Shown piece by piece: positions 6,473-46,731 of a stretch of 64,000 bases of DNA. Positions within the stretch are counted from its first letter, which is position 1. Each line of letters starts with the position of its first letter. A model generated the notes under the pieces. It ran no database searches. It was given only the letters and a program-made list of their open reading frames with translations, and was not told the DNA's origin. Source of the stretch: a virus; IMG/VR virus record IMGVR_UViG_3300025379_000003, positions 92,631 through 156,630 of that record, one strand, 5' to 3'. The position numbers were made by a program, and so were the translations under genes.

Positions 6473-6496
6473 TGTTTATCCAGGGTTTTCTGCGTA

Positions 6497-6504: not shown

Positions 6505-6535
6505 CTAAAAAGAAGATAACCTTTTATCTTAAACT

Positions 6536-6543
6536 TATTTATT
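6536..6543 (-). promoter_or_regulatory. Late-promoter-like AATAAATA for the tape measure
   Basis: AATAAATA on the minus strand lies 64 bases upstream of the tape-measure ATG. Together with the plus-strand TATAAATA at 6497 it would make this 83-base gap a divergent late promoter region. Confidence 0.35.
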
Positions 6544-6555
6544 CGGAGAAAAACC

Positions 6556-7419: not shown

Positions 7420-7424
7420 GGCTT

Positions 7425-8515: not shown

Positions 8516-8540
8516 TTTGATTTCCTTTAATGTTATGATT

Positions 8541-8548
8541 TATTTATA
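8541..8548 (-). promoter_or_regulatory. T4-type late promoter TATAAATA
   Basis: An exact TATAAATA on the minus strand, ending 25 bases before the ATG at 8515. It sits just downstream of the perfect hairpin 8554-8573, so the unknown 291-residue gene can be transcribed independently of the structured RNA region. Confidence 0.7.
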
Positions 8549-8974: not shown

Positions 8975-9400
8975 TTATAGTTTATTTTTTATGTGGGAGC
9001 CATGTATGCGAGCACTTATCTGTCCGTTATAATATTCATCAGATTCTAGAACTCGTCTAGAAAACTGTTCACGGGCTTCAATATAAGTACACTCTGCTTT
9101 TGATCGACAATAGTAGAGTATTTCGCGTTTAAAATTTTCTGTGCCTAAGAGCGCAATGTCCTTACTAAGTTCATCGCTTGATCCATAATATGTTTGCCAG
9201 TCGCTATCTATTTTGCTTCTGATCTTTTTCTTTTTCTTTGTGCCGTTCTTTAACTTTACAGTCTTGTAGGTCGTTTTACTAAATTTTGCTAATTTTTTGC
9301 CTATATATTTTCTACCAGTAGTTAAATTAGTGATAAGGTACACGAAGCCTATACAGTCTTCAGGTAACTCCGCCACTATTTGATCCTGGTATGTCCACAT
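8975..9400 (-). CDS. GIY-YIG-like endonuclease
   Basis: The 141-residue product has GFVYLITNLTTGRKYIGKK at residues 18-36, matching the GIY-YIG core (Y-hydrophobic-I ... Y-I-G). A Lys-rich insertion follows (KLKNGTKKKKKIRSK), then WQTYYGSS and a Glu-containing helix near residue 112 (YIEAREQFSR). Such small nucleases occur in T4-like phages as Seg-type homing enzymes or as resident nucleases. The start overlaps the upstream gene by 41 bases. It borders the structured segment 8549-8974, but no intron splice context is evident since both flanking genes are intact. Confidence 0.75.
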   Translation of the reverse strand: MWTYQDQIVAELPEDCIGFVYLITNLTTGRKYIGKKLAKFSKTTYKTVKLKNGTKKKKKIRSKIDSDWQTYYGSSDELSKDIALLGTENFKREILYYCRSKAECTYIEAREQFSRRVLESDEYYNGQISARIHGSHIKNKL

Positions 9401-9734
9401 TGTTTGTTTTTATTTTTTTAGGTCTTCCTGGCCCAGCCTTGACTGTTTTAGTAAACCCTTTTTTATTAGCTCTACGAATCTCTTTTAGGTTTTGATTATT
9501 CATCCTATATATGTGTAACGACAGTTGTATGAGTCGCCGTTCATAATTCATCATTTTTTGGAGACTGACACGAACTTGCCGCCCAGTATCCAAAGTATAA
9601 TTCTTTTCTAGGAAGTCATAATGGTAATTATGCACATTGGCCAAATGCGACACATATTCTGAGTACAGGGCCTTATATTCGGCCACCATATTATCCAACA
9701 ATGTCTGCGCTGTTTGAGTAACTTGTGAATCCAT
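9360..9734 (-). CDS. Unknown protein with AT-hook-like tail
   Basis: A 124-residue, mostly helical protein (VAEYKALYSEYVSHLANVHNYHYDFLEKNY...). The C-terminal third is basic and contains GPGRPKKIK at about residues 101-109, an AT-hook-like minor-groove-binding motif. It overlaps gp46 upstream (44 bases) and the GIY-YIG gene downstream, so it belongs to the recombination operon. DNA binding is a reasonable inference; no enzyme motif is visible. Confidence 0.7.
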   Translation of the reverse strand: MDSQVTQTAQTLLDNMVAEYKALYSEYVSHLANVHNYHYDFLEKNYTLDTGRQVRVSLQKMMNYERRLIQLSLHIYRMNNQNLKEIRRANKKGFTKTVKAGPGRPKKIKTNNVDIPGSNSGGVT

Positions 9735-32100: not shown

Positions 32101-35100
32101 TCTGACAATATTTGGAATACACAAAATAATAGCCTAGCCTATGATGAAATCAGTGCGTATGATCAAACACTATACGATCAAACTCCTGATTTAGAGTTGA
32201 ATTATATTTTAACGGCATTACGTGATAATATTTTTATCAACGAATTACGAGTAAATTGGAATTTATTCTTCTTTAAGGCAGTTAAGTATGCGTTCACAGA
32301 ACAAAAATTATTAGACTGGGCATTCAAAACATCATTTATCAGTATTACTAATGAAGCAGGCGTGCTGGCACAGCCTTCAGTATATTTGGTAACCAGTAGC
32401 ACAAACTTTGAAAACTATATTGAAGAAGTAAAACCTTATCATACACAAATTAGGAATTTTACAGAACAATATTCTGTTGTAGAACCAACTGCTACTTATA
32501 CCTCAGATTTTGAAGATTCAACATCTGCTCTAGATCCAATACGTAATTTTGACATTACAATGAAATTTGATAGAATTTCAGCCAGTGGACAAATTGGAAA
32601 TACAACTACTACTGACCAATTCATATGTAATGGATCTGCAACTTCATTTGTGTTAAGGTGGCTCGCTGTACCTAATAAATCTTTGATTATTATGACATTG
32701 GATGGGCTACGTGTGTTATACTCTGATTATACTATTGAATACTTCACAGAAGAATACAATGGATATTCAAAAAAATATTGTCAGATTAAATTTTTAAATG
32801 CTGTTCCTGGTATCGGGCAGTTATTAAAAATTACCTATGTTAAAGACGTCAGTATCCAATCCGCTGCAGATAGAATTTTAAATTATTATACAGCTACTTC
32901 GGGTATGCCTGGATTAGATCTAGGGCAACTAATGTTGGGTGTTGACTATCCCAGAACACAACTTCAAACATTGGCGTTTAATGCCACAACAGGATGGGAT
33001 GAAAGCAATGTGCCTTTTGGTACAACACCATGGGGCAACGACATTGAATACTATAGCAAGACTACATCAACCTCCACAGCAACTGCAGGAACAAATAATA
33101 TTTCATTGTACTCAGCATCGGCTACATTAGTTGGGCAATACGCAAATATTATTAGTACAATTACTAATGTGTTTTATTCAACTGATGTAACAGTGACAGC
33201 AGTCACAGGCACAGTGGTGACATTTAGTAGCACATTAACTTCGGCGATCCCACCTGGAACAGTTATTGAATTTTGGAATGTGGGTTCTAATTCCGCCCTA
33301 CTTGATACATCAATTGATGGCGGAACTTGGACTGGGACAAACGCGGCTATACTAACTGGCGCATTAGGTGTCAATCCAAGTGACATTATTATTGATGGCG
33401 GATCTACCAGCACTGCGAGAGTTGGTAGTGGCTTTTTAAATCCTGATGATAGCTATGCTCCGGAAGAATTGGTAGCAGGTGGGTCGAGTGATAGTCTTGG
33501 GATTAATGTTTATACCAAAACACCGTCAGGTGCTCCAATAGTTGTCAGTGGAAATTTTAATATTGTTGGTGGTACTACCGGTACAATTACCTTGCCTATT
33601 TTACCAACTACAACAGCAAGTATAACGGTCACTGACGGATTCCAGCAAGTATACTCATATACCACATCTACTAATTTAACACCTGGACAATTTAGCATTG
33701 ATTGGGCAACCAGTCAATTAAGTGTATACGTAAATTATAGTGCAATAATTGGATATACAATTATCAGTGTAGGCGGCGGAAGTGGTAATGATGCTGGGGT
33801 TGTGGCATATAATTCTGTTACAGTAACAGATGTATCTAATGCTCAAGTATATTGTAATTTTGAATTTGGATCTATCAACAGCGCATTTGTCACAGTTAAT
33901 GGATCATCAGTGTCCCTACAAACTACTTCTACAGGTTATGGTTATGTATTAGGGCCAGTTGTTGACGGGGCTGATACTCGTGCGGCAGTGACCGTTTACA
34001 ATTTACCTCCAGGGACAAATACTATTCAGGCATGGTTCTTTACATCTGCTCACAACTATTTCAATGAAATAACAGATCAATTCATTACAATTACAGATGG
34101 CGCCGTAAATACCTATGCGTTAAATCCAGCTCCTGGAAATATTGGACCAGCAGTGTCAAATGTCATAGTTCAACAAAATTCAAGACAATTGGTAGGACCT
34201 TATGTAAGTTATTACACAGTGACCAACGGTAATTTAACATTTAAAATTAATAACAGTAGACCAAGACCAACTGGGGTATATGCCATAGCCAATAACAGTG
34301 TAGAAGTCTACGTCAACGGCATTAAACTAAGTGGTGGATTTGATTTCATAGTTGACAATTTAGTCAATACAATAACCATTAGCTATAGTGGTGTTTCAGA
34401 CGGTGATGTGGTTGCGGTGGTTGATTTGTATCAACAACCGGGGGATGGATACGATTTTAATATTGAAGGATCTAATTTAATATTGTCAAGTCCCACACTT
34501 GGAACTACTATTAGAGTTATAACATACACTGATCAAGATGGAATGTTGTTGAGAACAGAACGATTTAAGGGCACAATATCCAACCAATTTAAGATCACTG
34601 CTCCTCCTTTAAACACAAACTATTTGTGGTTGGTGTTAGATGGAGTGCCGCTAGTTAATAATGTAGACTATCAAATTTTGAGTGATGGAGTTACAATACA
34701 AATCAGCGACAAGTATTTGATTGGTGTGGCTAATACGATTGTGATAACATATATTGCCAATCACACATTGGCATCCACTGTGTTGGGTTACAGAATTTTT
34801 AATGATATATTCAATAGAACTTCATTCAAACGTATATCTGCTAAAAATTCCACATACCTAACTCAACCGTTAAACTTAACAGATACTGAAATTCATGTTA
34901 ATGATACTAGTGTGCTGACTCCTGCTATACCATCCAAGAAAATTCCAGGAGTTGTAATGATTGCTGGTGAGCGCATTGAGTTCTTTACAATCACTGGAAA
35001 TGTATTAAGTCAGTTGCGTAGATCAACATTGGGCACAAGTCCTAAGACTTATTCAGACATTTATACCACAGTTATTGATCAAAGTCCAAGTCAAACAATA

Positions 35101-36012
35101 CCATTTAATGAAAGCATTTATACACAAACATTATATACAACCAGTACAACTGCCACATATACTATTTTGACCACTGCTAGTACGGCGACTGGGGATGGTA
35201 TAACTTTATCTTCAGGAATACCAGCTATGGATCAAGTACAAGTTTATTATGGCGGATATCAGTTGAATAAAGTTGGTACATATTATCAAGATACAACTTT
35301 ATCATATGATAGTCCAACATTTAAAATTACTGGATCTGTTTCTACAGAATCATTGTTGCCTTCAACTACAGTAATAAACACAGCATATATTGTTACATCT
35401 ACTAACAAAGTCTGGATTTATACAAATTCAATAGCAGCCGATGCTGTAAACGGGTATGTCTATACTGGTTTAAACTATTTGCCGCCTGAGTTCAGTATCA
35501 CTGCTACGCAGATAACCGTTGGGGCTATCGCAGTAGATGTACTTGGTGCCCAACCACCTAATGGTTCAGGGTGGGTGTTGTCTCAAAACACCTCCACTCA
35601 GCAGATAGCTGCAGGATGGACATTGATTGATGCTAACGGCGCCAAGTATCCCATTATTTCGGCAGGGCATAACAGTCTATTTAATGGATGGGGATTTGGA
35701 CTTGCTCAGGCAGCCACCATAGCTTGGCCCTTGACCTTTGTAAGTCCAGTCAGTCAACAAATTACGTTAAATACACTACAAGGAGTAGGGGACAACATTA
35801 AATTGGTTATTATTAAGAAAGAATTCTCGGATACCACATTATGGAACAATGGCGTTTCATTATTGGATAGTACTACTGAACAGGCTAAATTTATACAAGC
35901 TCGACCAGCTGTATTGCCAAATAGCTACTACAGCGGTGGAGATCCTGATATAACAACTGAAACAGGATTTGTCTTAACAGATCAAAATAATAACCCGATT
36001 GAAGGATTATAA
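23122..36012 (+). CDS. Giant baseplate wedge protein (gp7 position) with beta-propeller
   Basis: A single uninterrupted frame of 4296 codons. The N-terminus (VNLLPSYFQTDKNAKFL, then IDWDKLVNYQEYYWL) and the position after gp6 suggest the gp7-type wedge protein, which is 1032 residues in T4. Residues about 1990-2420 contain around seven FG-GAP-like repeats (for example FGQTVVYDD, VFAGAPTA, LVGAPAI), predicting an integrin-type beta-propeller. Residues about 3890-3995 carry a block with YRIFNDIFNRTSFKRISA and GERIEFF...QLRRSTLGT, which I associate with large structural proteins of aquatic T4-like phages. The rest is Ser/Thr/Asn-rich beta structure. Confidence 0.8.
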   Translation: MSTSTFQSVNLLPSYFQTDKNAKFLSSTIDQLIRPAQLERIDGYIGSKVTPNYVSTTDNYISNFSPIRAAYNLEPALVINDINSNIKEVIAYDDLINQVNVNGGITNNLDRLFRSEFYSYNPHIDWDKLVNYQEYYWLVTGPEIITITNDVLDVEADIVGKSGFTTLIGTATIALSNGMLIEFVGKNITSDYLNKKFFVEGVGSSVVLIDYNSLVTAGKISTIYNESFDGDGFDDFPFDGNKSLPISPDYITINRASKDLNAWTRYNRWVHQDVIAASALANGVQAVYPAQQRATRPIIEFKANLQLYNFGDSAIANVDWIDTETTNVFKSVEGSWGYFVDYDNTNPRLLGQGDRVIFTNDPDPLVKDKIWIVTYNIPGVGNTRQLALIPAPDHTPVTGNCVSIVNGSKYAGSSWWYNGTDWVYAQQHTKLNQPPLFDLFDDVGNSYSDTNHYISDFKGNQIFGYTPGDVYDSVLGFSIKYQNSISVGSYLFTNYFNSDVINVSQGQTSLAVSTAVTYCKFSESTGNVYTNVWSLSNGYKIPILQFQATTSTTSTIAITALDNFSNNDDIEVYVNFSKLHSNEFTLLKSLEKTVVSFAEPLATGTNVLFKLYSKTPLSNDTGYYEPPLGLTNNPLNGLLTSITLTDLQDHVQTMAEGSPEFLGKFPGLGNLRDIAGIEQYGRRLISNVNPIPFAQMFIGKKEHSVINALTKAADQYNQYKLGFLKQILILGNQSNPILAVDQALAAMNSSMNILSPYYLSDMIPYGTDVNSRTWTVTDSRNVTYPLSFDFDPSVLSLTAMLVYINNEQLLLNVDYEFNVADSSITLLTKLTPGDVLTVNQYPDTSGSYVPPTPTKLGLYPKFTPSIYLDNTYADGPVKVIQGHDGSIMVAYNDYRDAIVLEFEKRIYNNIKTQYRSDLFDINTVIPGAFNTNDYSLNEVNTILSRDFIKWAGAYGVDYTENVSFNQDEKFTWNYSGSYNELLGIPVNGNWRGIYKYFYGTDRPHTCPWEMLGFSEQPSWWTAQYGPAPYTSGNTLLWQDLEYGRNAHTDTINSLYSRPGLSNILPVDEYGNLLDPTVNLLVNYTPEGEQKNWVFGDQGPAEAAWRRSSYFPFAVQKLLALTYPAAYSSLMYDTSRIQKNIAGQWAYGVNLDYSFLSLKNITLQGVNNALTAGYSVYISEIGRQRTQNYNSELQSDINYLSYNLFHKVGGFVSQNTLQVTINAIDPTATSPGALLAPQDYSLILNVSDPISYSSISGIILQKVNGAFVVKGYDQTNPYFNVYTPVRNSATPTINVGGVTAPFVTWSNTTSYGETGLTADQTTTANTSPTGKFYQKGQYVQYGSNFYIVTVSHQSESTFNPSLYQEISALPVTGGATVQIATTFNKTIKQISYGTTFNTIQEVYDFIIGYGAWLTDQRFVFDLYSSDFGTNIDWNFTAKEFLYWSTQNWADNSVIALSPFAEKVQFTSANSVVDDIFDPFYSYNVMSANGTLIPKNRINITRQDGVCTITTLNSNDGIYFAIFRNVQKEHGMVFNNTTIFDNTAYSIETGFYQQRMKLSGFRTANWNGDYFSPGFVYDTAKVGDWTQYKDYNAGDAVYYSGNYYSAINNIDGAQKFDFTKWQVLPKKPTAGLLPNLDYKISQFQDFYSLDIDNFDSGQQKSAQYLTGYTPRPYLTNIIIDPIAQYKFYQGYIKEKGTYNAIAKLAKASIQNLQGNFTYNEEWAFRVGQYGSYSSYNELEVPLVEGTFIDNPQVIVFTATNPPVSAYDLKVYSTATDWQITPPNYVSSMTFAVNSGTLTNNAFELTTAGYVRADDVSYTTLNLDTLSAVVSSSTSVFKEGDIVWLGFKQDNDWDVLRYTESDGQIASVGINVPGVDVLVTTNGYHGLNSGELVSITEFDPTVNGVYLVTAVPNPTSFLIASTATYVANSASTTTVGLLFKFDSFRFNTFDNLSNDKKLLKLPEGTKVWIDNANNGQWGVYEKINNYSVSSANSLGNVYNQQLGYSISKRKGSNVVVVGAPGFVQSGNYGRVTVYTTNNNGGLTRKLDYYLNELSGAANSLNNDTGFGQTVVYDDNAFGSSIYGLVFAGAPTAQTTNGVVDSGLVKISSINSVSLEEVQQLVINNPSPSNYDLFGSGIYVQRTSTTTNKVMVVTAPGTVNTGTGTLNFYNLSISGSTVSATLFYRLAAPLSVGSQFGYSISGTDDASLIAVSVLGNTNTPAFVSIFSNSNGYAVANQEVTVSLPAGSGFGQKVLLSPDGTYLFVSAPYCENFDRSYGSVYVFENINGTFYESQVLTNPSGVIGVHFGTDIDINSTNNSLIISSVGSGVHGATTFDATSKFGGNTTFDADSTKFYDVINNSGTAYIYTRLASRFVFSEELSPVSTADGTNYGKAVTIDSDTALVGAPAIDNSTIASSVYLFSKIDTSTNGWKLLRSQNDLVATDTIQRVRLINTSTEEIVNYLDVIDPLKGRIAGMADQELTYKMISDPATYSIGTTANAINTLTNWADNHVGELWWDLSTVKYQWYEQGEDTFRKNTWGQVFPGSSIDVYEWVGSNLSPTEWSALADTPAGLTLGVSGQPKNPDNTVYSLVQSYDTVTQTFNNYRYYYWVKNSVIVPNVPNRRVSAYDVARVIKDPTGYGLQYASIISPHAVIVANVGGELIKSNIDLNISIDTTDNIIPKHTEWLLLQEGNETSLPNALLEKKLFDSLLGHDSVGNLVPDPALTSRTRYGIGIRPRQTMFVNRLNALRNLIEFANDILINNIITGSYNFINLNAQEEIPPVSSNLYDYTLEDTNELDTIDTSLFVTAELTCTVYDGKVRSVSITNPGLGYLTAPTVTVDGIGTGAVIKTEIDSNGRVINAIISNAGQGYVATPILTVRPYSVVVVSDSTYNGKWAIFVRDIENKTWVRARTQSYNTTLYWNYTDWSSSDFNKHKDYTTTVNYVYQIDSLVLNNGDYVKVKNNGLGNYIILEYTDSNVGTFSNHFNIVYSQNGTIQISDNIWNTQNNSLAYDEISAYDQTLYDQTPDLELNYILTALRDNIFINELRVNWNLFFFKAVKYAFTEQKLLDWAFKTSFISITNEAGVLAQPSVYLVTSSTNFENYIEEVKPYHTQIRNFTEQYSVVEPTATYTSDFEDSTSALDPIRNFDITMKFDRISASGQIGNTTTTDQFICNGSATSFVLRWLAVPNKSLIIMTLDGLRVLYSDYTIEYFTEEYNGYSKKYCQIKFLNAVPGIGQLLKITYVKDVSIQSAADRILNYYTATSGMPGLDLGQLMLGVDYPRTQLQTLAFNATTGWDESNVPFGTTPWGNDIEYYSKTTSTSTATAGTNNISLYSASATLVGQYANIISTITNVFYSTDVTVTAVTGTVVTFSSTLTSAIPPGTVIEFWNVGSNSALLDTSIDGGTWTGTNAAILTGALGVNPSDIIIDGGSTSTARVGSGFLNPDDSYAPEELVAGGSSDSLGINVYTKTPSGAPIVVSGNFNIVGGTTGTITLPILPTTTASITVTDGFQQVYSYTTSTNLTPGQFSIDWATSQLSVYVNYSAIIGYTIISVGGGSGNDAGVVAYNSVTVTDVSNAQVYCNFEFGSINSAFVTVNGSSVSLQTTSTGYGYVLGPVVDGADTRAAVTVYNLPPGTNTIQAWFFTSAHNYFNEITDQFITITDGAVNTYALNPAPGNIGPAVSNVIVQQNSRQLVGPYVSYYTVTNGNLTFKINNSRPRPTGVYAIANNSVEVYVNGIKLSGGFDFIVDNLVNTITISYSGVSDGDVVAVVDLYQQPGDGYDFNIEGSNLILSSPTLGTTIRVITYTDQDGMLLRTERFKGTISNQFKITAPPLNTNYLWLVLDGVPLVNNVDYQILSDGVTIQISDKYLIGVANTIVITYIANHTLASTVLGYRIFNDIFNRTSFKRISAKNSTYLTQPLNLTDTEIHVNDTSVLTPAIPSKKIPGVVMIAGERIEFFTITGNVLSQLRRSTLGTSPKTYSDIYTTVIDQSPSQTIPFNESIYTQTLYTTSTTATYTILTTASTATGDGITLSSGIPAMDQVQVYYGGYQLNKVGTYYQDTTLSYDSPTFKITGSVSTESLLPSTTVINTAYIVTSTNKVWIYTNSIAADAVNGYVYTGLNYLPPEFSITATQITVGAIAVDVLGAQPPNGSGWVLSQNTSTQQIAAGWTLIDANGAKYPIISAGHNSLFNGWGFGLAQAATIAWPLTFVSPVSQQITLNTLQGVGDNIKLVIIKKEFSDTTLWNNGVSLLDSTTEQAKFIQARPAVLPNSYYSGGDPDITTETGFVLTDQNNNPIEGL

Positions 36013-36013
36013 A

Positions 36014-39000
36014 ATGCCACAAATTACCACATTACCATTATTGACAACTGCCACAAACGAAACTTATTTTGTAGTAGTTGACAATCAAATTACCAAGAGA
36101 TTCAATTTTGGTAATTTACCAAATAGTTTTACTGGCTACGCAGGATCTCAAGGGTACGCAGGCAGTGCCAGTGTTGGATTTGCAGGAAGCGTGGGACCAC
36201 AAGGTCCTGTTGGATATACTGGAAGTAGTGGGGCAATTGGTTATTTTGGTAGCACCGGGTATGCTGGTAGTGCTGGATCAAATGGTTTTGCTGGTAGCAA
36301 GGGATATACTGGCAGTACAGGATATGCTGGTAGCGCAGGAGTTATTGGATATAACGGTAGTTTTGGATTTACTGGCAGTAAAGGATACACTGGTAGTGCC
36401 GGGCAATTAGCAGGACTTTATATTTCTATAACAGATAGTGGATTGGGCAGTTTTTTAATCAATGGCCTTAATACCAACATTATTAATCTAGCCCGTGGAT
36501 TCACTTATTATTTTACTGTTAATAGCCCAAGTCATGGTTTTTACATAGTTGACCATTATACTGACAATAATAGTGCCCCATACACTACTGGAGTAACAAA
36601 TAATGGAGCAACGGTTGGTACAGTAACATTTAGTGTGCCAATGAACGCTCCTGATACTCTAGCATATCAAACTAATAATTTGCCTAGCATGAACGGTGTA
36701 ATCAACATTTCTAATGTGGGAATTGGCTACACGGGTAGTAAAGGTGACCCAGGCGGCTATACAGGCAGTGCTGGTGCTCCAGGAACTCCGGGTGGTTATA
36801 CAGGCAGTATAGGTGCCTCCGGATATACTGGTAGTGTTGGTCGTATTGGCTACAGTGGTAGTATTGGAAATTTAGGGTATACAGGCAGTGTTGGATCTAT
36901 TGGTTTTACTGGATCAGCAAGTTCTGTTCCAGGCCCGCAAGGACCTCCAGGCGGCTATACTGGTTCAGCCAGTAATGTAAGCGGTCCGCAAGGTCCTAGA
37001 GGATACACAGGTAGTGTTGGTAATATTGGTAAAACTGGATTTACAGGTAGTGTCAGTGAAGTACCTGGACCAACTGGCCCACAAGGACCACCAGGAGGTT
37101 ATACTGGTTCGGTTGGGGCTCAAGGACCACAGGGCTATACAGGTAGTTTAGGCTACAGCGGAAGTATTGGCTATACTGGATCAGCAAGTACTGTATCTGG
37201 ACCACAGGGTTTCCAAGGGTTTAGTGGAAGTAAAGGTGATGCTGGCGGATATACTGGTTCTGTAGGCCCGCAAGGACCACAGGGATATGCTGGTAGTCAA
37301 GGATATGCTGGTAGCTTGGGCTATACAGGTAGCATTGGTCCACAGGGTTTTACTGGGTCTGCTAGTAGTGTGAGTGGACCGTTGGGCTATACTGGATCAG
37401 TTGGTTTTACTGGCAGTGTGGGCCCACAAGGTTATACTGGATCTGCTAGTAATGTAATTGGCCCAACAGGCTATTCAGGATCAACTGGCTTTACAGGCAG
37501 TTTTGGTCCGCAAGGTCCGCAAGGTTATACTGGATCCGCTAGTAGCGTAAGCGGTCCATTGGGATACAGCGGTAGCTTAGGGTATACTGGTAGTGTTGGT
37601 TATACTGGCTCTGCTAGTAACGTAAGTGGCCCACAGGGTCCTAATGGATTTACGGGTAGTAGAGGATTCTCTGGGTCAATTGGTGCGGCAAGCCAAATCG
37701 GGTATACTGGTAGTGTTGGTGCTCAAGGTAATCCAGGTGGATATACTGGTAGTCAAGGTTACACTGGTAGCGTTGGCTATTGGGGAAGTGCTGGTTATTG
37801 GGGAAGTGTTGGCTACACAGGTAGCCAAGGCATTACCGGTTTTACTGGCAGCTTTGGCGTTACTGGTTTTACTGGTAGCCAAGGATATTCTGGATCAGTG
37901 GGATATACTGGCAGTATAGGATTAGGATTCCTTGTTACCACAGCAACAAGTACGGCAACTAATATTGCTCTTGTTTCTCCTGGAACCACATTCAGCTTTA
38001 CTGCTACCAACATTGCATTATCAGCGTATACCACAAGTCAATCTATAGTATTATTGTCCTCTCCAGGCGGAGTAGTTAATCCTGCTAATTATATTTCAAG
38101 TATCATTACCAGTATTACTGGAACAACAGTAACTACCCAAGTTTATTCAGTCTACGGATCTGGAACATTTACAAGTTGGCAATTTATATTAAGCGGGGTA
38201 GTTGGCAAAAATGGCTATGCTGGCAGTACTGGCTATGCTGGAAGTATTGGACCACAGGGCTATTCAGGATCAATTGGCGGATTGGGGTATTCTGGTAGTC
38301 AAGGTTACGCTGGCAGCGTTGGCTATTGGGGATCAGTTGGTTATGCTGGTAGTCAAGGTATAACAGGATTTACTGGTAGTTTTGGTACACAGGGGTTTGC
38401 TGGAAGTAAAGGCGATGCTGGTGGATATACTGGATCAGCAAGTACGGTACAAGGACCACGTGGTTATTCTGGATCTCAGGGTGCTTATGCTTCTATTGGA
38501 TTTACAGGTAGCAAAGGTGACCCAGGTGGATACACTGGAAGCATTGGGACTACAGGTTATACTGGATCAAGTGGCTTAGGCTACGCTGGCAGCGCTGGAG
38601 CAACAGGTTATACTGGATCAGCAAGCACAGTCAGTGGTCCAATAGGCTATGCTGGTAGTGTTGGACCAGTAGGTTATTCTGGATCAGCAGGAGCAGGTAC
38701 TAGAGTAACAGTTACAACAGCAACCAGCGTTTTAGCGGCAGGAACTACTGCTACAACTATCGTATTAGGATACAAATCTTATGTGTTGTCAAAAGTTGTA
38801 ACTGATCAGCCAGCATGGGTTAGAATCTATACTGACGCAACTAGTTTATCCAATGACAGTTCTAGAAATCAAAGTACTGATCCTACAGCAGGATCTGGAG
38901 TGATAGCAGATGTTATTACAACTTCTGGATCGTTAACACAATTAATTACCCCAGGAGTTGTTGGATTTAATAATGATACTATAACAAATAGTACAGTCTA

Positions 39001-39076
39001 TCTGGCAGTTACAAATAACTCTGGAAGTTCGTCAGCAGTTAATGTAACATTAACACTATTAGGATTAGAACAATAA
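36014..39076 (+). CDS. Collagen-like tail fibre
   Basis: A 1020-residue fibre; ATG at 36014 with GAAGG upstream is preferred to an upstream TTG at 35999. Residues about 40-132, 237-635 and 730-895 are Gly-X-Y repeats dominated by GYTGS, GYAGS and GPQGP, predicting collagen-type triple helix. Residues about 133-236 form a separate domain (RGFTYYFTVNSPSHGFYIV ... TFSVPMNAPDTLAYQTNN) resembling the cupredoxin-like domains of aquatic phage fibres, but without the usual Cys/His ligands. The C-terminal 125 residues are a Thr/Val-rich beta tip. It likely forms a trimeric host-contact fibre. Confidence 0.85.
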   Translation: MPQITTLPLLTTATNETYFVVVDNQITKRFNFGNLPNSFTGYAGSQGYAGSASVGFAGSVGPQGPVGYTGSSGAIGYFGSTGYAGSAGSNGFAGSKGYTGSTGYAGSAGVIGYNGSFGFTGSKGYTGSAGQLAGLYISITDSGLGSFLINGLNTNIINLARGFTYYFTVNSPSHGFYIVDHYTDNNSAPYTTGVTNNGATVGTVTFSVPMNAPDTLAYQTNNLPSMNGVINISNVGIGYTGSKGDPGGYTGSAGAPGTPGGYTGSIGASGYTGSVGRIGYSGSIGNLGYTGSVGSIGFTGSASSVPGPQGPPGGYTGSASNVSGPQGPRGYTGSVGNIGKTGFTGSVSEVPGPTGPQGPPGGYTGSVGAQGPQGYTGSLGYSGSIGYTGSASTVSGPQGFQGFSGSKGDAGGYTGSVGPQGPQGYAGSQGYAGSLGYTGSIGPQGFTGSASSVSGPLGYTGSVGFTGSVGPQGYTGSASNVIGPTGYSGSTGFTGSFGPQGPQGYTGSASSVSGPLGYSGSLGYTGSVGYTGSASNVSGPQGPNGFTGSRGFSGSIGAASQIGYTGSVGAQGNPGGYTGSQGYTGSVGYWGSAGYWGSVGYTGSQGITGFTGSFGVTGFTGSQGYSGSVGYTGSIGLGFLVTTATSTATNIALVSPGTTFSFTATNIALSAYTTSQSIVLLSSPGGVVNPANYISSIITSITGTTVTTQVYSVYGSGTFTSWQFILSGVVGKNGYAGSTGYAGSIGPQGYSGSIGGLGYSGSQGYAGSVGYWGSVGYAGSQGITGFTGSFGTQGFAGSKGDAGGYTGSASTVQGPRGYSGSQGAYASIGFTGSKGDPGGYTGSIGTTGYTGSSGLGYAGSAGATGYTGSASTVSGPIGYAGSVGPVGYSGSAGAGTRVTVTTATSVLAAGTTATTIVLGYKSYVLSKVVTDQPAWVRIYTDATSLSNDSSRNQSTDPTAGSGVIADVITTSGSLTQLITPGVVGFNNDTITNSTVYLAVTNNSGSSSAVNVTLTLLGLEQ
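36131..38700 (+). repeat. Coding repeats for Gly-X-Y collagen-like segments
   Basis: Degenerate short tandem repeats in three blocks (about 36131-36410, 36722-37920 and 38216-38700) encode GYTGS, GYAGS and GPQGP units. Codon choice varies between copies, so the repetition is conserved at the protein level. Such arrays may recombine and change fibre length. Confidence 0.85.
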
Positions 39077-40353
39077 TGTCTGATGAACAAATAGTCGCCC
39101 AGCTTGCGGATTTAACTGTAACGCCAATTGATGAATCAGTACACACAAATACTGGCTACTATTATAGTGGTAATTATGTATATCTTACACCCCCTCAAAT
39201 TGCTACAGCATATAATATGCCGTATCATTCTGGAGCAGGTATTAAGGTTGGAATTATTAGTTTTGGTGGAACTTTCCTTCAAAGCGATCTTAATTCAACA
39301 TTTTCAGATTATAAAACAAGGGGTATTCTTCCAGCATCAGTATCAGCACCAACTATAACGCAGGTATTGTTAAATGGCGCAACTGGCACTAGTGACAGCA
39401 ATGCTGACGGAGAAAATATATTAGATATCACATGTATTGCCACATTAGTCCCTCAGGCCAATATTACCATTTACATAAACACCAGTTCTACTACAGTGGC
39501 TAATGTTCGAAGTACTATTGCTAGAGCTGTTTCTGATGGGTGTGATGTAATATCAATGAGTTGGACATTCAGTGAATCTGGTGGAGATTTTTTATCATCA
39601 CAGCTACAATCAGCTAATTCCAATAATATTGCTTTTGTAAACAGTTCGGGAGACCTTGGTTCTGATTCGGGAAATGTATTGGCAGTCAACTATCCGCCGT
39701 CTAGTCCCTATATGATTGCTGTTGGTGGGACTCATCTTACCATAAACACAGGAACCAATACTCGTTTAACAGAAACAACCGAACAAGACGACTCTACTTT
39801 TGGTAGTACTTTTGGTAGTGGCGGCGGATTTAGTTCAATATTTTCAGCTCCTAGCTGGCAAAGTGGGCTACAATATCAAACATATAATAGTTCGACTCAC
39901 GTTACCGGAGCATTAACATCTGTGACTGCGAGGGGTATTCCAGACATTTCTGGTCCAATGGCCAACGCCTATGCGTTTTATACTAGCGGAACTCTAAGCG
40001 GTGTTGGTGGTACTAGCGCATCCACTCCTGTTATGGCAGGCATGATAGCTAGAATCAAGGCATTAACTGGTAAAGCATTGGGATCAGTAGCATACAATCA
40101 ACTGTTTTATGCCAATCCAACTGCATTTTACGATATCACTACAGGTACCAATGCCACAGCCATAGCCCAAGGATACGCATCACGAGTTGGTTGGGATCCT
40201 GTTACAGGTATGGGAGCGCCAAACGGGTATTCTTTACTGAGTCTTATTCAAAGTCTTCGATCAAACCAAGGTATGACATTTCCAAGACAGTCTAGTATTC
40301 GACCTAATCAAGGGCAGACATTTCCGAGATCCAATACACGATTTAAACACTAA
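39076..40353 (+). CDS. Sedolisin-type serine-carboxyl protease (S53 family)
   Basis: The 425-residue product shows the complete sedolisin/kumamolisin signature: Glu113 and Asp117 in DGENILDIT, oxyanion Asp193 in NSSGDLG and nucleophile Ser314 in GGTSASTP. Spacings are close to the bacterial enzymes. A Ca-site-like end follows with YDITTGTN (residues 352-359) and GWDPVTGMGAPNG (372-384). There is no signal peptide and no pro-domain. The extreme C-terminus repeats an NQGxTFPR unit twice. The start codon overlaps the fibre stop (TAATG), and genes on both sides are tail genes, so a virion-associated protease acting on host surface proteins or on fibres is inferred. Confidence 0.9.
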   Translation: MSDEQIVAQLADLTVTPIDESVHTNTGYYYSGNYVYLTPPQIATAYNMPYHSGAGIKVGIISFGGTFLQSDLNSTFSDYKTRGILPASVSAPTITQVLLNGATGTSDSNADGENILDITCIATLVPQANITIYINTSSTTVANVRSTIARAVSDGCDVISMSWTFSESGGDFLSSQLQSANSNNIAFVNSSGDLGSDSGNVLAVNYPPSSPYMIAVGGTHLTINTGTNTRLTETTEQDDSTFGSTFGSGGGFSSIFSAPSWQSGLQYQTYNSSTHVTGALTSVTARGIPDISGPMANAYAFYTSGTLSGVGGTSASTPVMAGMIARIKALTGKALGSVAYNQLFYANPTAFYDITTGTNATAIAQGYASRVGWDPVTGMGAPNGYSLLSLIQSLRSNQGMTFPRQSSIRPNQGQTFPRSNTRFKH

Positions 40354-40376: not shown

Positions 40377-41024
40377 ATGAAACAGAGCTCAACAATGACA
40401 AACTACCCACAACAAAAGCCCAATGAACAGGGCAATATGCGAGTACAAGGGCATATTAAGATATTTGACCCTAATACTAAAGAAGTGTTCATTGATAAAA
40501 AGAATGCGATCCATTACGAAAATTTTAGTCTTGCTATGGCGCAGAGTTTGAGTAATCAAGGATATGGTACTATCTATGAAATGGCGTTTGGCAATGGCGG
40601 CACACGAGTTGATGATACTGGAATTATTACATATCTAACTCCAAATACAATTGGCACCAGCGCTAGTTTGTACAATCAAACTTATTATAAAACCGTAGAC
40701 GCACAGCAAACTACTGATTTAAATCCCACAAATAACTACATGCAGGTACGTCATATTACTGGTACTGCTTATAGCGATATTTTAGTAAGCTGTCTATTAG
40801 ATTTTGGCGAACCCAACGGTCAAACAGCATTTGACAATGCTACTAATTCTAATGGAACTTATGTATTTGATGAATTAGGTTTATTAAGTTATAGTCCAAA
40901 TGGACCGGGCACAGGAATGTTATTAACACATGTCATATTCCATCCAGTACAAAAATCATTGAATAGAATGATTCAAATTGATTATACAGTTAGGGTTCAA
41001 AGTCTTAGCAACAGCGGGAATTAA
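40377..41024 (+). CDS. Unknown tail-region structural protein
   Basis: The product is 215 residues from the first ATG, or 209 from the ATG at 40395. The second start is required if the GATAAATA motif at 40365 is a promoter. The sequence reads as a compact beta-rich protein: GHIKIFDPNTKEVFIDKKNAIHYENFSLAMAQ, MAFGNGGTRVDDTG, FDELGLLSY and IQIDYTVRVQS. There are no membrane or enzyme motifs. It lies between the sedolisin and four paralogous fibre genes, so it is probably a virion or fibre-attachment component. I do not recognise a named family. Confidence 0.75.
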   Translation: MKQSSTMTNYPQQKPNEQGNMRVQGHIKIFDPNTKEVFIDKKNAIHYENFSLAMAQSLSNQGYGTIYEMAFGNGGTRVDDTGIITYLTPNTIGTSASLYNQTYYKTVDAQQTTDLNPTNNYMQVRHITGTAYSDILVSCLLDFGEPNGQTAFDNATNSNGTYVFDELGLLSYSPNGPGTGMLLTHVIFHPVQKSLNRMIQIDYTVRVQSLSNSGN

Positions 41025-41026
41025 TC

Positions 41027-42838
41027 ATGCCATATACACTTAATTTTTCAGACCCAAGTAAAATTACTGCTATTACAGTTCCAGATATGCCTCCAGGTGT
41101 TAATACTGTTGATACTAGTTTAACTTTGGTTGGAAAAGGATACCCAAATTTTGGACAAGCAATTGATCAAAATTTCCTAAGTCTTTTAGAAAACTTTTCT
41201 AGTTCGTTACCGCCTGCCAATCCTATTGAAGGTCAGTTATGGTACGACACCAGCAATCCTGGTAATAAAGTATTACGCATAATGGATGGCACAGCTGGTG
41301 CTGTTAATTGGGCCAGCGCAAACGGAATTTATCAGCAGGCCACTGATCCATCATTAACCACTACATTAAAATCTGGAGATATTTGGGTTAACACTCAATT
41401 AAGCCAGCTTAACATTTACAATGCTGGTAGTTGGATTGCTGTTGGAAATGCTGGAACTGGCGAATTGAATGGCCCTGTTGTTGAAACTGTAGTAGATACT
41501 ACAGGCACTAATCATCAAATCACATCTACTTATGTCAACGGATCTCGAGTAACGATACTAGCAAATGAAACTTTTATTCCAAATCCAATAATTTCTGGTT
41601 TTACCGGAATATATCCTGGAGTTAATGTTGTTTCAGGATCATTTTTAAATGGCGTATCAGTTAGTGCGGCCAATTTAACTGTTAATAATTCGTTATATAG
41701 TGCCGGTAGTTTTTTAAGAAAAAATGATAATTCAGTAAACGGTCAAGTAATCACAGGTCGACTACTATTTTCAACACCCAATGCTAATAATCAATCTGGA
41801 TCACAAGGGCGCGACGGGGTAGTTATTAATATAGCTGGATCTAATAGTAGCAACTATATACAATTATACAAATACATTAACGATGCTGTGTTGCTAAACA
41901 ACACTGCCGGTGGTAACATTGTCATTAAAACAACTAATGGCATCAGTAGTTTGCCAAACAACACAGTGGTAGTTGCTGATGGGGTCGTTACAATCAATAC
42001 AACAACATCCATTAATAATCCTAGTTTAGTAGTTAATGGACCGGCCAGTGTGTCTCTTGGCCTTAGTGTAGGCGGTTCTACTACAATAACTGGCAATGTT
42101 GCCACATCTGGCACATTAAGTGTTGGTGGCACATCAGTATTTGGCGATGATATAACAGTTGACGGACAAATTTATGTAAATTGGTTAGATGGAAATGGTA
42201 ATCCGCAAGCTGGTGCCGGAATTTTACCATCAGTGACTAGTACTTATGACATAGGATCCGCATCAGCACAGTTTAACAGAATTTATGCCAACGCAATTGG
42301 TACTACTAGTACACAGGTATTTGGGGTATTCAATGGCCCGGCTACCGCATTGGCTTATGGTACTAATTTTAAAATACAAGGACAGGTAACCGCCACTAAT
42401 GTTGTGTTTTATGGAAATGGTTCAACGGCAACATTTAATACAACATTGACTGCTAGCGCAATTACAGCCCAGCATACTGCAACATATACATCAAATAACA
42501 TGACATTAATGGTGGTTGATACATCTACTAATGCTAGTTACACAGGCCTTCAAAAAATTAGTATAAATCAGTTAAATCAAGGATTTTACTCTGCAGGAAT
42601 GATAATCATGCATGGAAATAATATTCCCCCAGCAGGTTGGTTATTGTGTGACGGATCAAGTCATGCTATATCATCATACCCTAATCTAGCTGCCGCGCTA
42701 CAATATCAAGGTGCTGGTAATTTTATCTATGGAGGAGTTGTTCCTAATTTTAATGTTCCTGATTTAAGAACAGCAACAGCAGTATACAAAGTACCCGGTA
42801 CTGAGACCGGCTACGTCAACTATATAATAAAGTACTAA
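41027..42838 (+). CDS. Tail fibre/collar protein, paralog 1
   Basis: The 603-residue fibre begins with a module shared by the next three genes: SLTLVGKGYPNFGQAIDQNF, LLENF and GQLWYDT (residues about 25-85). The middle is Ser/Thr/Gly-rich beta structure. The C-terminus carries a phage tail-collar-like domain: IPPAGWLLCDGSSHAISSYPN then FNVPDLRTA. Such domains form the receptor-contacting tip of short tail fibres. It is followed two bases later by paralog 2. Confidence 0.82.
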   Translation: MPYTLNFSDPSKITAITVPDMPPGVNTVDTSLTLVGKGYPNFGQAIDQNFLSLLENFSSSLPPANPIEGQLWYDTSNPGNKVLRIMDGTAGAVNWASANGIYQQATDPSLTTTLKSGDIWVNTQLSQLNIYNAGSWIAVGNAGTGELNGPVVETVVDTTGTNHQITSTYVNGSRVTILANETFIPNPIISGFTGIYPGVNVVSGSFLNGVSVSAANLTVNNSLYSAGSFLRKNDNSVNGQVITGRLLFSTPNANNQSGSQGRDGVVINIAGSNSSNYIQLYKYINDAVLLNNTAGGNIVIKTTNGISSLPNNTVVVADGVVTINTTTSINNPSLVVNGPASVSLGLSVGGSTTITGNVATSGTLSVGGTSVFGDDITVDGQIYVNWLDGNGNPQAGAGILPSVTSTYDIGSASAQFNRIYANAIGTTSTQVFGVFNGPATALAYGTNFKIQGQVTATNVVFYGNGSTATFNTTLTASAITAQHTATYTSNNMTLMVVDTSTNASYTGLQKISINQLNQGFYSAGMIIMHGNNIPPAGWLLCDGSSHAISSYPNLAAALQYQGAGNFIYGGVVPNFNVPDLRTATAVYKVPGTETGYVNYIIKY

Positions 42839-42839
42839 A

Positions 42840-43853
42840 ATGGCATATACAATTTTAAATTCAGACGGAACCACGCTATTATTATTGTCAGATAATTCAG
42901 TAGACAATGTTACAACTAGCCTTTCTTTAGTTGGTAAAAATGTCAGTAATTATGGACAGTATATCAACAATAACTTTGTAAAATTATTAGAAAGTTTTTC
43001 CAGTACCTATGGAAATCCCCCAGCAAATCCAGTAACTGGACAATTATGGTATAATACTACTGCTCAACGATTATATGTTTATGATAATGGTTTTAACCCA
43101 GTTAGCGGTGCTATTGTCTCTGGAACACAGCCTGGTATTTTAAATTCTGGAGCATTTTGGTGGGATAGTACAAATAGTCAATTAAAATTATTCAATGATA
43201 ATGTATTATACACTGTTGGTCCTGTATTCCCACAATCAGTGGGCAGTAACGGATGGGTATTACCTGCTGCCACATTGGTTGATGCTACTACATTGGCGAC
43301 GCAACAGGTTACATTATTAAACAACTATGGAACAACAGTTGGGGTATTAAGCAACTCTGCTTTTTCAATGACTCCAGCAGCCGCCCAAACATATTTTAGT
43401 ACCAGTACTGCTACAGTAGTTGCCGGTTTGACAATTAACGGTGACCTAAAGGTATCGGGACAGGTATTTAATAGATACTTATCGGCATCAGTTAGCATTG
43501 ATTCTTTAGATCCATCAGTATTAACAACTAGTGATTCACATAATGTATCATTATATGTGTCCTACCAATTACAAAATCAAGCAATTACCAGTGTCTTAAA
43601 ACTAATGTATCCAGTATCTGTTTCCACATCAACCAATGAGGTTGGAATTCCTTTAGGATCTGAAGCCAGAGTAATTTGCTCATTTAGTAAATCAGGAGCA
43701 ACTGGTAACAGCGGTGTTGGTACACAAGTTCGTAGATTCCAAATTCAAAATAATAGCCTACAAGGTATTAGCTGGCAACCAGTTGAAATTTATTCTACAG
43801 GAACAAAATATTACAGTGTAATAACAACTGCTACGGTCAACGTGGTAATGTAA
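42840..43853 (+). CDS. Tail fibre protein, paralog 2 (no collar tip)
   Basis: A 337-residue protein with the same N-terminal module (SLSLVGKNVSNYGQYINNNF, LLESFS, GQLWYNT). It lacks the collar domain and ends in a beta-rich region (EVGIPLGSEARVICSFSKS, VRRFQIQNNS). The shared head suggests that it docks at the same site as its neighbours but carries a different tip, or acts as a spacer or cap. Confidence 0.8.
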   Translation: MAYTILNSDGTTLLLLSDNSVDNVTTSLSLVGKNVSNYGQYINNNFVKLLESFSSTYGNPPANPVTGQLWYNTTAQRLYVYDNGFNPVSGAIVSGTQPGILNSGAFWWDSTNSQLKLFNDNVLYTVGPVFPQSVGSNGWVLPAATLVDATTLATQQVTLLNNYGTTVGVLSNSAFSMTPAAAQTYFSTSTATVVAGLTINGDLKVSGQVFNRYLSASVSIDSLDPSVLTTSDSHNVSLYVSYQLQNQAITSVLKLMYPVSVSTSTNEVGIPLGSEARVICSFSKSGATGNSGVGTQVRRFQIQNNSLQGISWQPVEIYSTGTKYYSVITTATVNVVM

Positions 43854-43862
43854 GGAAAAGTA

Positions 43863-45509
43863 ATGTCATATCAAATTTTAAAATCTGACGGAACTGTATT
43901 AACTGAAATAGCTGATGGTACAATTGACAGTATATCGTCTAGTATTTCTCTTATTGGCAAAAATGTTGTTGGGTTCGGCCAAGCTCAAAATTCTGATTTT
44001 ATCCATATGTTGGAAAATTTTGCCTACGGAGTGCCACCAGTTAGTCCATTAGTTGGGCAATTATGGTTTGATACTACTAATAATTCTTTAAATGTTTATA
44101 ATAATGGTTGGCAAACTTTGGGTGTTATTACCTATGACGCAATTCCGCCCATTGTATCAATACAAGGCAATCTTTGGTTTGATACTAGCAATCAAATTTT
44201 AAAAATTAATACAGGCACCGGGTTTATCAATATTGGTCCAGAAGGTGTTTCTGGATTTAGTACAACAAAGTTTAGTTCAGTGGAATTAATGGACACTAAC
44301 AATGTTGCCCATGCTGTTATTGAATGTGTAATAAACGGCGAAGTAATTGCCATTATAAGCCGAGATGCTTTTAACATTTCCTATGTAAATGCTGTGGACG
44401 GATTCCCTTCATTGAATAGAGGCATTACATTTAAAAATTATGCCAGCAGTGATGTGGAACTTTTTGGATACTCTCAAACTAGCGGGTCTTCAAACGCTTT
44501 ATTAGATGAAACTCAGTCGACCTATCTCACAGCATCATCTATATCGGCAGGCGCATCAATTGTACAAAGAAATTCATCAGGAAATACTTCGGTCAACGGT
44601 TTGACCGCATCTAAACTAACTAGTTTTAATAATGCTGGTATTTTGGCTGGATCTTGGTTCGCTGATACTTCAATTACTCCATCAACTACTAATGCTGTAA
44701 ATTTAGGATCCCAAAGTCTAACATGGGGCACAGTTTGGACCAACAGCGTTCATTCACAAAATATTTCTTCAAATAGTTTAAATGTTAATGGTGTCATATT
44801 ATCATCGGCAACATTTACCAATTTAATATCGGCCAGTAACAATCAAACAATTAGTAAATTTGATACAGACGGTACTTTATCAGCAGATTCGGACGGAAAT
44901 CTAGCAACACAAAAAGCCACAAAGACTTATGTTGATACAGTCGCGGCAACCTTGTCGGCAACTATAGCAACTTTACAATTACAAATTTCATCATTGGCAG
45001 CTGGGTATACACCAATACCACCAGGAACGATCATGTACATTGCTGGTGGAACTGTGCCAGCAGGATTCCTATTAGCAGACGGTTCATCTGTAGGCGTTGA
45101 TCAATATTACAATTTATATATTGCTTTGGGCGGTGCTACCAGCCCTTACGGGGCCAACGGCGCAAGTTTTACTCTACCAGATCTTCGAGGTTATTTTGTA
45201 CGGGGTGCCGATCATGGTGCTGGCAGAGATCCTGGTAGGTTGTACTCAACTATACAATCAGACAATGCTGTTATAAAATCGCACTACCATGTATTTCCGG
45301 GCGATGATCAATTGACAGGTGCCGCTGGATCAAGCAACTGGCCAGGCACATCAGTTGGTCCATTTAATTATGATGCTAGATCCAGTTACGGTGGCGGAGC
45401 ACAGATGTGGTTAACTGGCAATGCTGAAGATGCAGCTGGTAATCCTATTGCGGATGTTGGTGAAACACGTCCAAAAAATATCGCCCTCTACGGAATAATT
45501 AAAACTTAA
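43863..45509 (+). CDS. Tail fibre/collar protein, paralog 3
   Basis: The 548-residue fibre has the shared N-terminal module (SISLIGKNVVGFGQAQNSDF, LENF, GQLWFDT). A predicted coiled coil lies near residues 350-380 (KTYVDTVAATLSATIATLQL). The C-terminal collar region is well formed: GTVPAGFLLADGSSV, LPDLRGYFVRGADHGAGRD and the terminal RPKNIALYGIIKT, as in T4 gp12-type short fibres. This is the best candidate for the main receptor-binding short fibre. GGAAAAG precedes the ATG. Confidence 0.85.
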   Translation: MSYQILKSDGTVLTEIADGTIDSISSSISLIGKNVVGFGQAQNSDFIHMLENFAYGVPPVSPLVGQLWFDTTNNSLNVYNNGWQTLGVITYDAIPPIVSIQGNLWFDTSNQILKINTGTGFINIGPEGVSGFSTTKFSSVELMDTNNVAHAVIECVINGEVIAIISRDAFNISYVNAVDGFPSLNRGITFKNYASSDVELFGYSQTSGSSNALLDETQSTYLTASSISAGASIVQRNSSGNTSVNGLTASKLTSFNNAGILAGSWFADTSITPSTTNAVNLGSQSLTWGTVWTNSVHSQNISSNSLNVNGVILSSATFTNLISASNNQTISKFDTDGTLSADSDGNLATQKATKTYVDTVAATLSATIATLQLQISSLAAGYTPIPPGTIMYIAGGTVPAGFLLADGSSVGVDQYYNLYIALGGATSPYGANGASFTLPDLRGYFVRGADHGAGRDPGRLYSTIQSDNAVIKSHYHVFPGDDQLTGAAGSSNWPGTSVGPFNYDARSSYGGGAQMWLTGNAEDAAGNPIADVGETRPKNIALYGIIKT

Positions 45510-45519
45510 GGATTTAGAA

Positions 45520-46731
45520 ATGCCATACATATTATACAATTCAAATGGAAGCAAATTAGTCACTGTTGATGACGGATCAGTCGACGAATCTACCAGCCTA
45601 TCGTTTGTTGGTCGTAATTACAGCGGATATGGCCAAATACAAAACCAAAATTTTATATACTTGTTGGAAAGTTTTGCCAATAGTACAGCTCCAAGTAAGC
45701 CTGTCCAAGGTCAACTCTGGTTCAATAATAACACCAATGAACGTAATTTAAATGTATGCTACGACGGTATAAATTTTAAACCTTTGGCCAATATCACCAG
45801 CCAAAGTACGGACCCGGCTATCACTGCTACACCATTGGATGGTGATCTTTGGTGGAATACTCAATCAGTACAATTAAATTCTTGGAGCTCAGAATACGGT
45901 AGATGGATTACTATTGGACCATATAACTCAGTTGAGTCAGTGGCATCCTGGCAACCTGTTGCTGAAATTGGAGCAGATGGAAATACCTATAATATTTTAA
46001 AAGGCTACATTGGGTCAAACCCAGTGGCAGTGATATCTAATTCGTCTTTTGAACCAAAAACAACTTCAGACTTATATTCAAACTTTGTTAATGGCGTAGT
46101 AGCTGGTATAACCTTGAAAGATGCCAACGGTTCTGGATCAACACAGGCCAGTGGATTTTATCTTTGGGGAACTGCCGCCGAAGCACTTACAGCCAATCTA
46201 GCATCTCAGGTAACGGTATCTACAACTTCATCTGGTGTGCTGAATGTTCCATTAGTGCAGGCCACTGGATCCCAGACAATATTATCTACCAGCACATTTA
46301 ATTACAATGTATCTACACAGGTATTAAACGCAACAGCCACAGCGGCACAATATGCTGACCTAGCAGAACGTTATTGGGCAGATGCTGTTTATGCTCCGGG
46401 TACTGTTTTATGTTTAGGTGGATCTAACGAAGTTACTGTTACTAATAATCATGCTGATACCACAGTAATAGGTATAGTGTCTACAAATCCGGCCTATTTA
46501 ATGAATAAAGACGCTGGAAATGACGAAACTCACCCCGCTATTGCCCTAAAAGGCCGTGTTCCATGCCAGGTTTTAGGGCCAATTAATAAAGGTGACTTGT
46601 TAGTTACTAGCTGGATGCCAGGATACGCAGAAGCATATATTTCTGGGGGTGATGAACTTAACGCAGTATTTGCCAAAGCCATAGGCACTAATGCGTATGG
46701 TCCTGCGGTTATTGAAGTTTTAGTTCTTTAA
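45520..46731 (+). CDS. Tail fibre protein, paralog 4, with distinct C-terminal domain
   Basis: A 403-residue protein with the shared N-terminal module (SLSFVGRNYSGYGQIQNQNF, LLESFAN, GQLWFNN). The C-terminal 120 residues differ from the other paralogs: YADLAERYWADAVYAPGTVL, VIGIVSTNPAYLMNK, PAIALKGRVPCQVLGPINKG. This pattern resembles domains that end fibres and sometimes self-cleave (Peptidase_G2-like), but I see no firm catalytic pair. It is the last gene of the plus-strand structural block and converges on thyA. Confidence 0.8.
   Translation: MPYILYNSNGSKLVTVDDGSVDESTSLSFVGRNYSGYGQIQNQNFIYLLESFANSTAPSKPVQGQLWFNNNTNERNLNVCYDGINFKPLANITSQSTDPAITATPLDGDLWWNTQSVQLNSWSSEYGRWITIGPYNSVESVASWQPVAEIGADGNTYNILKGYIGSNPVAVISNSSFEPKTTSDLYSNFVNGVVAGITLKDANGSGSTQASGFYLWGTAAEALTANLASQVTVSTTSSGVLNVPLVQATGSQTILSTSTFNYNVSTQVLNATATAAQYADLAERYWADAVYAPGTVLCLGGSNEVTVTNNHADTTVIGIVSTNPAYLMNKDAGNDETHPAIALKGRVPCQVLGPINKGDLLVTSWMPGYAEAYISGGDELNAVFAKAIGTNAYGPAVIEVLVL

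Follow-up and report, generated by a model that had tools for sequence, protein, structure and literature searches.

Why would a phage encode a protease of the sedolisin (S53) family in the midst of its tail fibre genes? Sedolisins are usually made as secreted pro-enzymes, although this trait lies outside the definition of the family, and the depolymerases borne on phage fibres are best known for their action on sugars. The gene that raises the question lies in a window of 64,000 nucleotides, by which we mean the whole stretch of DNA analysed; it is the final 64 kb of a virus record 156,630 bases long (IMGVR_UViG_3300025379_000003) that may itself be a fragment. The virus is of T4-superfamily type, encoding a portal, a head maturation protease, a baseplate hub and wedge, and a late sigma factor. 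The best 15 of 2468 matches to its portal all belong to large-genome phages of Pseudomonas, Xanthomonas, Sinorhizobium and Erwinia, every one of them below 60% identity.

The answer for which we argue, and to which we assign a probability of about 0.72, is that a sedolisin with a complete active site is held by a double tag at its C-terminus on the C-terminal domain of the preceding fibre, where it would be exposed and would cut proteins of the host surface. The features on which the argument draws are collected in Table 1.

Table 1. Features of the sedolisin locus, in window coordinates
Feature	Position	Strand	Basis
Collagen-like tail fibre gene, 1025 aa; stop overlaps sedolisin start by one base	35999..39076	+	ORF, Pfam, PHROG
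Fibre C-terminal 125-residue beta-sandwich domain; proposed tag docking site	38699..39073	+	Profile search, AlphaFold2
Sedolisin (S53) protease gene, 425 aa	39076..40353	+	ORF, Pfam, phmmer, AlphaFold2, Foldseek, VIA-align
Catalytic domain, residues ~35-392	39178..40251	+	Kumamolisin alignment and fold comparison
Active-site codon E113	39412-39414	+	Kumamolisin alignment
Active-site codon D117	39424-39426	+	Kumamolisin alignment
Active-site codon D193	39652-39654	+	Kumamolisin alignment
Active-site codon S314	40015-40017	+	Kumamolisin alignment
Doubled tag: RSNQGMTFPR (40258-40287) and RPNQGQTFPR (40300-40329)	40258..40329	+	Pattern, tag HMM; residues 398-425 with pLDDT <50
215-aa gene after the sedolisin (PHROG 11259, unknown function)	40377..41024	+	PHROG
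Four further fibre/collar-type genes with similar N-terminal region	41027..46731	+	ORF, Pfam, PHROG

Identity, fold and active site of the protease

The protease gene (39076-40353) is a single complete open frame of 425 codons, its ATG overlapping by a single base the TAA that closes the fibre frame (35999-39076). A sequence-only reading of the window had described this overlap with a collagen-like fibre and had placed an S53 protease within the tail fibre cluster; both descriptions hold, the frame being real and its product a close match to the kumamolisins. In a phmmer search of PDB chains, the protein matched kumamolisin chains 1t1g (E 7.4e-37), 1gt9 (1.3e-36) and 1t1e (8.4e-36) and, more weakly, sedolisin 1nlu (8.6e-14). 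An AlphaFold2 model computed from a 19-sequence alignment (pLDDT 81, pTM 0.86, with pLDDT below 50 at residues 1-3, 196-199 and 398-425) has the sedolisin fold expected of S53. Kumamolisin-As heads the Foldseek results for this model (E 4.8e-26). Likeness to kumamolisin in three dimensions, the check that the earlier reading had suggested, was also recovered by VIA-align, which ranks kumamolisins first at Z scores around 45 (44.5-46.3, rmsd 1.8-2.8, 326-353 residues aligned; for 4ne7, Z 45.4, rmsd 1.8, 329 aligned), with other S53 structures at Z 31-43 and subtilisin-type structures below 28. The top S53-like models among predicted structures of viral proteins are those of giant viruses (Barrevirus and others).

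The sole Pfam family matched by the window protein at E up to 0.01 is Peptidase_S8 (E 4.8e-16). We rejected the S8 identity that this match would suggest: the Asp-His-Ser triad of the S8 enzymes is not found, Glu, Asp and Ser follow the S53 order, and S53 structures fit the model far better. The Pfam match is a clan-level one.

The catalytic residues of kumamolisin, whose roles and numbering we take as given for this assignment, align in the phmmer alignment with E113, D117, D193 and S314 of the window sedolisin, giving the catalytic Ser, Glu and Asp and the oxyanion Asp in the right order. These are the four residues picked out by the sequence-only reading, and they are invariant in the clusters of viral contigs that reach them: all 58 share E113, D117 and D193, and S314 is the same in 57 of 57. 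As far as a model can tell, the overall match to the kumamolisin fold together with the four-residue alignment speaks against an active site whose residues fail to cluster. The C-terminal Ca-site-like motifs noted in the same reading are likewise retained, D353 in 52 and D374 in 54 of the 55 clusters that reach them; D353, I354 and D374 align with what we presume to be the Ca ligands of kumamolisin, so that the single C-terminal Ca-binding site of S53 is present as judged by sequence. The gene is under purifying selection, with dN/dS values of about 0.06 against its relative in locus L004 and about 0.12 against that in L003. The resemblance to the kumamolisin/sedolisin family thus covers sequence, fold, the Ser-Glu-Asp plus Asp active site and the Ca-site residues, and the assignment of the protein as an S53 sedolisin with an intact active site is well supported.

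In T4-type phages with the gp37/gp38 arrangement, the tip adhesin has a gene of its own, immediately downstream of that for the fibre. The window sedolisin, overlapping the fibre gene by one base, occupies this gp38-like place, and the position could be taken to mean that the protease serves in the particle as a binding module for which catalysis is dispensable. The retention of E113, D117 and D193 in all 58 clusters, and of S314 in all 57 that extend to it, argues against such an adhesin, which we regard as very improbable.

N-terminal region and viral relatives

In contrast to kumamolisin and sedolisin, the window protein lies in a phage fibre operon, carries a double tag and departs from the secreted pro-enzyme form usual in S53: some 35 residues precede the catalytic domain, inspection by eye revealed no hydrophobic N-terminal signal, and Pfam gave no match to Pro-kuma_activ. 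The absence of a pro-domain claimed in the sequence-only reading therefore stands for this copy. It does not extend to the group as a whole, since P0002, a relative of 35-39% identity, has a Pro-kuma_activ domain (PF09286, E 1e-13).

IMG/VR was searched three times for S53 relatives, with 7, 40 and 80 loci obtained in turn, the last set being the best 80 of 122 relatives. The second and third searches together contributed 120 locus entries, in which many contigs appear twice, and these collapse into 58 clusters at 90% identity. These were placed in a maximum-likelihood tree, rooted at the midpoint, with 29 bacterial and archaeal sequences picked out of 79 loci (257 matches). All but one of the clusters (57 of 58) form a single clade (100/100) separate from the 29 bacterial and archaeal S53 sequences compared; the remaining cluster, L046, groups with bacteria. 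Twelve clusters, the group of P0002, have a long N-terminal part (136-179 residues) and fall outside a clade of 45 clusters (100/100) in which this part comprises 23-63 residues, the exceptions being L183, which is fused to S8, and L159, which starts with GTG. The missing pro-domain is most simply read as a loss, which would have occurred once within the phage clade, since the long N-terminal part persists in other phage lineages.

Two queries against 50,697 phage records returned no S53 match in phage isolates. Acid lakes may be a source of S53 carriers, although this is offered as an idea only. One contig, retrieved both as L035 and as L183, encodes at 5787-9875 a 1362-residue frame in which S8 and S53 domains occur together, with neither a tag nor an upstream fibre domain, and the frame is broken, through a real change or an assembly fault, in two sedolisin genes (L038, 7914-9180; L168, 5920-7160).

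A stand-alone soluble domain that, in the window copy, has neither a visible signal peptide nor a pro-domain might be thought to act inside the infected cell or to be freed at lysis, with host or defence proteins as its targets and its place in a tail operon incidental. The pairing of the two genes, however, is conserved across many diverse viral contigs; moreover, the sedolisins of L028 and L026 are fused to glycine-rich or Ig-type domains, and a sister copy retains a pro-domain of the kumamolisin type. We consider an intracellular role quite improbable.

The fibre domain and its neighbours

For a protease borne on the fibre, the proposed partner is the end of the fibre itself. The fibres upstream of tagged relatives are variable in length and body and have in common an end domain of about 125 residues, which typically ends one base before the protease start or overlaps that start. 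AlphaFold2 predicts a beta-sandwich for this domain (pLDDT 91, pTM 0.85). It matches PHROG 9627 (unknown function) and no Pfam family, and structural searches of the PDB gave no clear relative, the best Foldseek match having an E-value of 1.7e-3 and the best VIA match, XepA, a Z of 7.8, within what the tool defines as the common range. The body of the window fibre consists of collagen-like G-Y-T/A-G-S-type repeats (36000-39000), and fibre length varies among relatives, with 1025 codons in L003, 995 in L004 and 916 in L012.

Viral contigs carrying the domain were gathered as the best 80 of 390 relatives and, for a cyanophage version of the domain, the best 80 of at least 580, amounting to 159 loci that are those closest to the queries. 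The 169 domain-bearing frames in these loci are followed by an S8 gene in 145 cases, an S53 gene in 9 and another gene in 15. After dereplication at 90%, the 117 following genes comprise 100 S8, 6 S53 and 11 others, so that, among these closest loci, a protease stands directly after the fibre domain in 106 of 117 cases. The 11 others are L086, described below, eight clusters with a different large, closed, untagged gene, and two that are cut off. Searches of the 156,630-base record for a second fibre domain and for a second S8 or S53 gene found none, the sole matches being the domain and the sedolisin described here.

Several features of the surrounding region may be added. The baseplate wedge genes are separated from the fibre gene by a single frame of 4296 codons (23122-36012). 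Downstream, a gene with a C-terminal end like that of the 215-aa gene follows the sedolisin in several related loci, as judged by inspection. The N-terminal region of about 75 residues that is similar among the four fibre or collar-type genes may be a common attachment domain, because the docking-domain fibre of L159 starts with a similar region.

The C-terminal double tag

The window sedolisin has a doubled, conserved NQGxTFPR tail (residues 395-404 and 409-418). This is a variant of a more general double tag with halves patterned on R-P-x-x-G-x-x-[FYW]-P-R, the first half being shorter or altered in many relatives. A pair of Pro-basic (or Pro-Asn) steps, 14-15 residues apart, is found in 30 of 34 tagged S53 clusters. 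For the 64 S8 clusters that match the strict pattern, a measure that uses the first pattern match only places a partner step 15 residues before that match in 35 and finds it absent in 25.

The distribution of the tag was compared with that of the fibre domain in complete S53 clusters whose upstream region is known. The tag is present in all 33 with the fibre domain upstream and in none of the 19 without it, L046 among them (Fisher 1e-14, with kinship ignored and with a tag pattern and domain profile derived from part of the loci later counted). On the coding strand of the 19 untagged clusters, no fibre domain was found anywhere in the fetched locus. L168 belongs to neither set, having the domain upstream, a frame broken before the tag and the tag readable in another frame; also left out are L198 and L202, which the contig end truncates, together with L178, L181 and L192, whose upstream region lies beyond it (two untagged, one tagged). 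The GTG-started L159 and L197 are both tagged, and in each the fibre-domain frame overlaps the start of the protease frame. On the tree, the tag label changes at least five times, in part owing to two truncated or frameshifted rows. That the doubled tail may be an anchoring tag, as the sequence-only reading had ventured, receives strong comparative support from this division of 33 of 33 against 0 of 19.

Sedolisins without the tag either terminate in K-T-x-x-T-W-like repeats or form fusions with Ig-like or other large parts. L028 unites the tag and a glycine-rich domain in one chain, and in L192 (73-1683) a collagen-like GPTGPQ linker lies between the sedolisin domain and the tag.

The arrangement extends beyond S53: next to the same fibre domain, S8 subtilases have a similar double C-terminal tag. 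An HMM built from the 33 S53 tags alone recognized, before dereplication, 58 of 72 S8 frames at E <0.01 (24 of them at <1e-6) and 1 of 4045 other frames, a lone match (L196, 10913-11311, E 0.0095) that looks like chance. By regular expression, the tag was counted in 95 of 136 S53 frames, 68 of 72 S8 frames, neither of the two frames with both S8 and S53, and 15 of the 4045 others, five of these 15 being small tag-ended proteins. The strict pattern is matched by 64 of the 100 S8 clusters and the permissive pattern alone by 31 more, the last five being cut at contig ends; among frames of at least 400 residues, the permissive pattern occurs in 69 of 71 S8 frames as against 9 of the 557 others. 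In L086, the place of the protease is taken by a 63-aa gene that encodes a Pro-rich linker and the double tag, with no protease (HMM E 3.7e-7); a search for a second copy of this bare-tag gene found none. The 33 to 19 division, the S8 matches of the HMM and the bare tag of L086 together indicate that the tag goes with the fibre domain rather than with a protease family, and its partner would seem to be a specific one, the domain at the C-terminus of the upstream fibre.

Single tag halves (for example RPGGGQLYPRGNQ) were seen at the ends of proteins of 77-88 residues in L208 (4194-4427), L095 (6863-7120) and L115 (9085-9351), in each case after a large protein of the 'NNGNTGW' type, which in L095 and L115 comes after the fibre domain; L116 and L119 look similar to these two.

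Tight adjacency to one fibre domain could also be produced by an enzyme and its substrate. The conserved pair would then reflect a protease that matures the fibre, or a neighbouring structural protein, at assembly, and the accessible portion of an overview of jumbo phages (PMC7824862) records that phages use maturation proteases. We think this unlikely, because two protease families have a similar tag beside the same domain and because the tag exists in L086 without any protease; the fibre processing offered as one role in the sequence-only reading loses ground on these same two counts. The untagged sedolisins, several of them fused to other large parts, also lack the upstream domain, and the head maturation protease of this virus is encoded elsewhere in the window (193-822), apart from the sedolisin.

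Subtilases in the same place in cyanophages

Among phage records, 48 carry the fibre domain; 46 of these are named as Synechococcus phage or cyanophage, and two are marine single-cell viruses. A tagged S8 protease is the next gene in five of six inspected isolate regions (S-H9-1, S-CREM1, ACG-2014h, S-RSM4 and S-CAM1), and the labels of these five genes are subtilisin-like serine protease, peptidase, hypothetical (twice) and tail fiber protein; cyanophage S-CBS2 is the exception, the gene after its fibre domain not being a protease. Relatives of the S8 protease were present in 39 and 44 phage records with two queries. The subtilases of cyanophages such as S-H9-1, S-CREM1 and S-RSM4 resemble the window sedolisin in their place directly after the same fibre domain and in their similar tag. 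They differ from it in protease family, in the N-terminal part (by inspection) and in belonging to isolates from Synechococcus, and some differ further in carrying esterase-like or cupredoxin-like additions after the tag. The S8 protein of L209 (5302-8226; cyanophage ACG-2014h), for instance, runs beyond the tag into esterase-like and cupredoxin-like parts, both matched by Pfam below cut-off, and similar cupredoxin-like ends were seen by inspection in several marine S8 relatives.

The accessible text of Sullivan 2010 (PMC3037559) mentions an S8 peptidase gene cluster in P-HM1 and P-HM2 and refers to a virion proteome of S-SM1. Within the texts surveyed, the literature on cyanophage subtilisins and tail fibers yielded only a 'sheath subtilisin' label, and that on phage sedolisins, subtilases and tail proteases no description of the fibre/protease pair or of its tag.

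A model for a protease at the fibre end

In the fibre-borne arrangement that we propose, fibre and sedolisin would be made together from their overlapping genes, perhaps by coupled translation. The tag, probably unstructured and with its halves about 15 residues apart, would dock on the conserved fibre domain, which as the C-terminal part is presumably the distal end of the fibre, and the docked protease would be left exposed near that end. Carried in this way on the virion, it would cut host surface proteins during adsorption or free the particle from decoys. A similar dock and tag would carry the S8 subtilases of other phages, for which reason the enzyme may be regarded as exchangeable cargo.

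More generally, we think it reasonably probable that T4-type and jumbo-like phages have in common a plug-and-socket device, in which a conserved beta-sandwich socket and a doubled RPxxGxx[FYW]PR plug hold swappable, unrelated cargo at the fibre end. To a similar degree we would expect the fibre to remain unchanged when the cargo is swapped, the cargo so far consisting of S53 and S8 proteases, of S8 extended by additional domains, and of the plug peptide by itself.

Akin to gp38 of the T4-type phages, the sedolisin is encoded in a separate gene directly after the fibre and is proposed to sit on the fibre end. It departs from gp38 in that an enzyme is proposed as the tip protein and a short repeated peptide as the contact. 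According to the accessible part of its description (PMC10966104), Anabaena phage A-1(L) has a peptidase domain in its tail hub, a likeness in that a part of the tail has hydrolytic activity against the host envelope. That domain, however, is built into the hub, whereas the sedolisin here is a separate protein with a common tag.

Conclusions

If the proposal is true, widespread protein-cutting fibre ends would alter the view of adsorption to protein-coated or cyanobacterial cells. A short peptide tag by which enzymes dock could serve to load proteins onto phage particles, and cyanophage genes frequently annotated as hypothetical gain a concrete, testable role.
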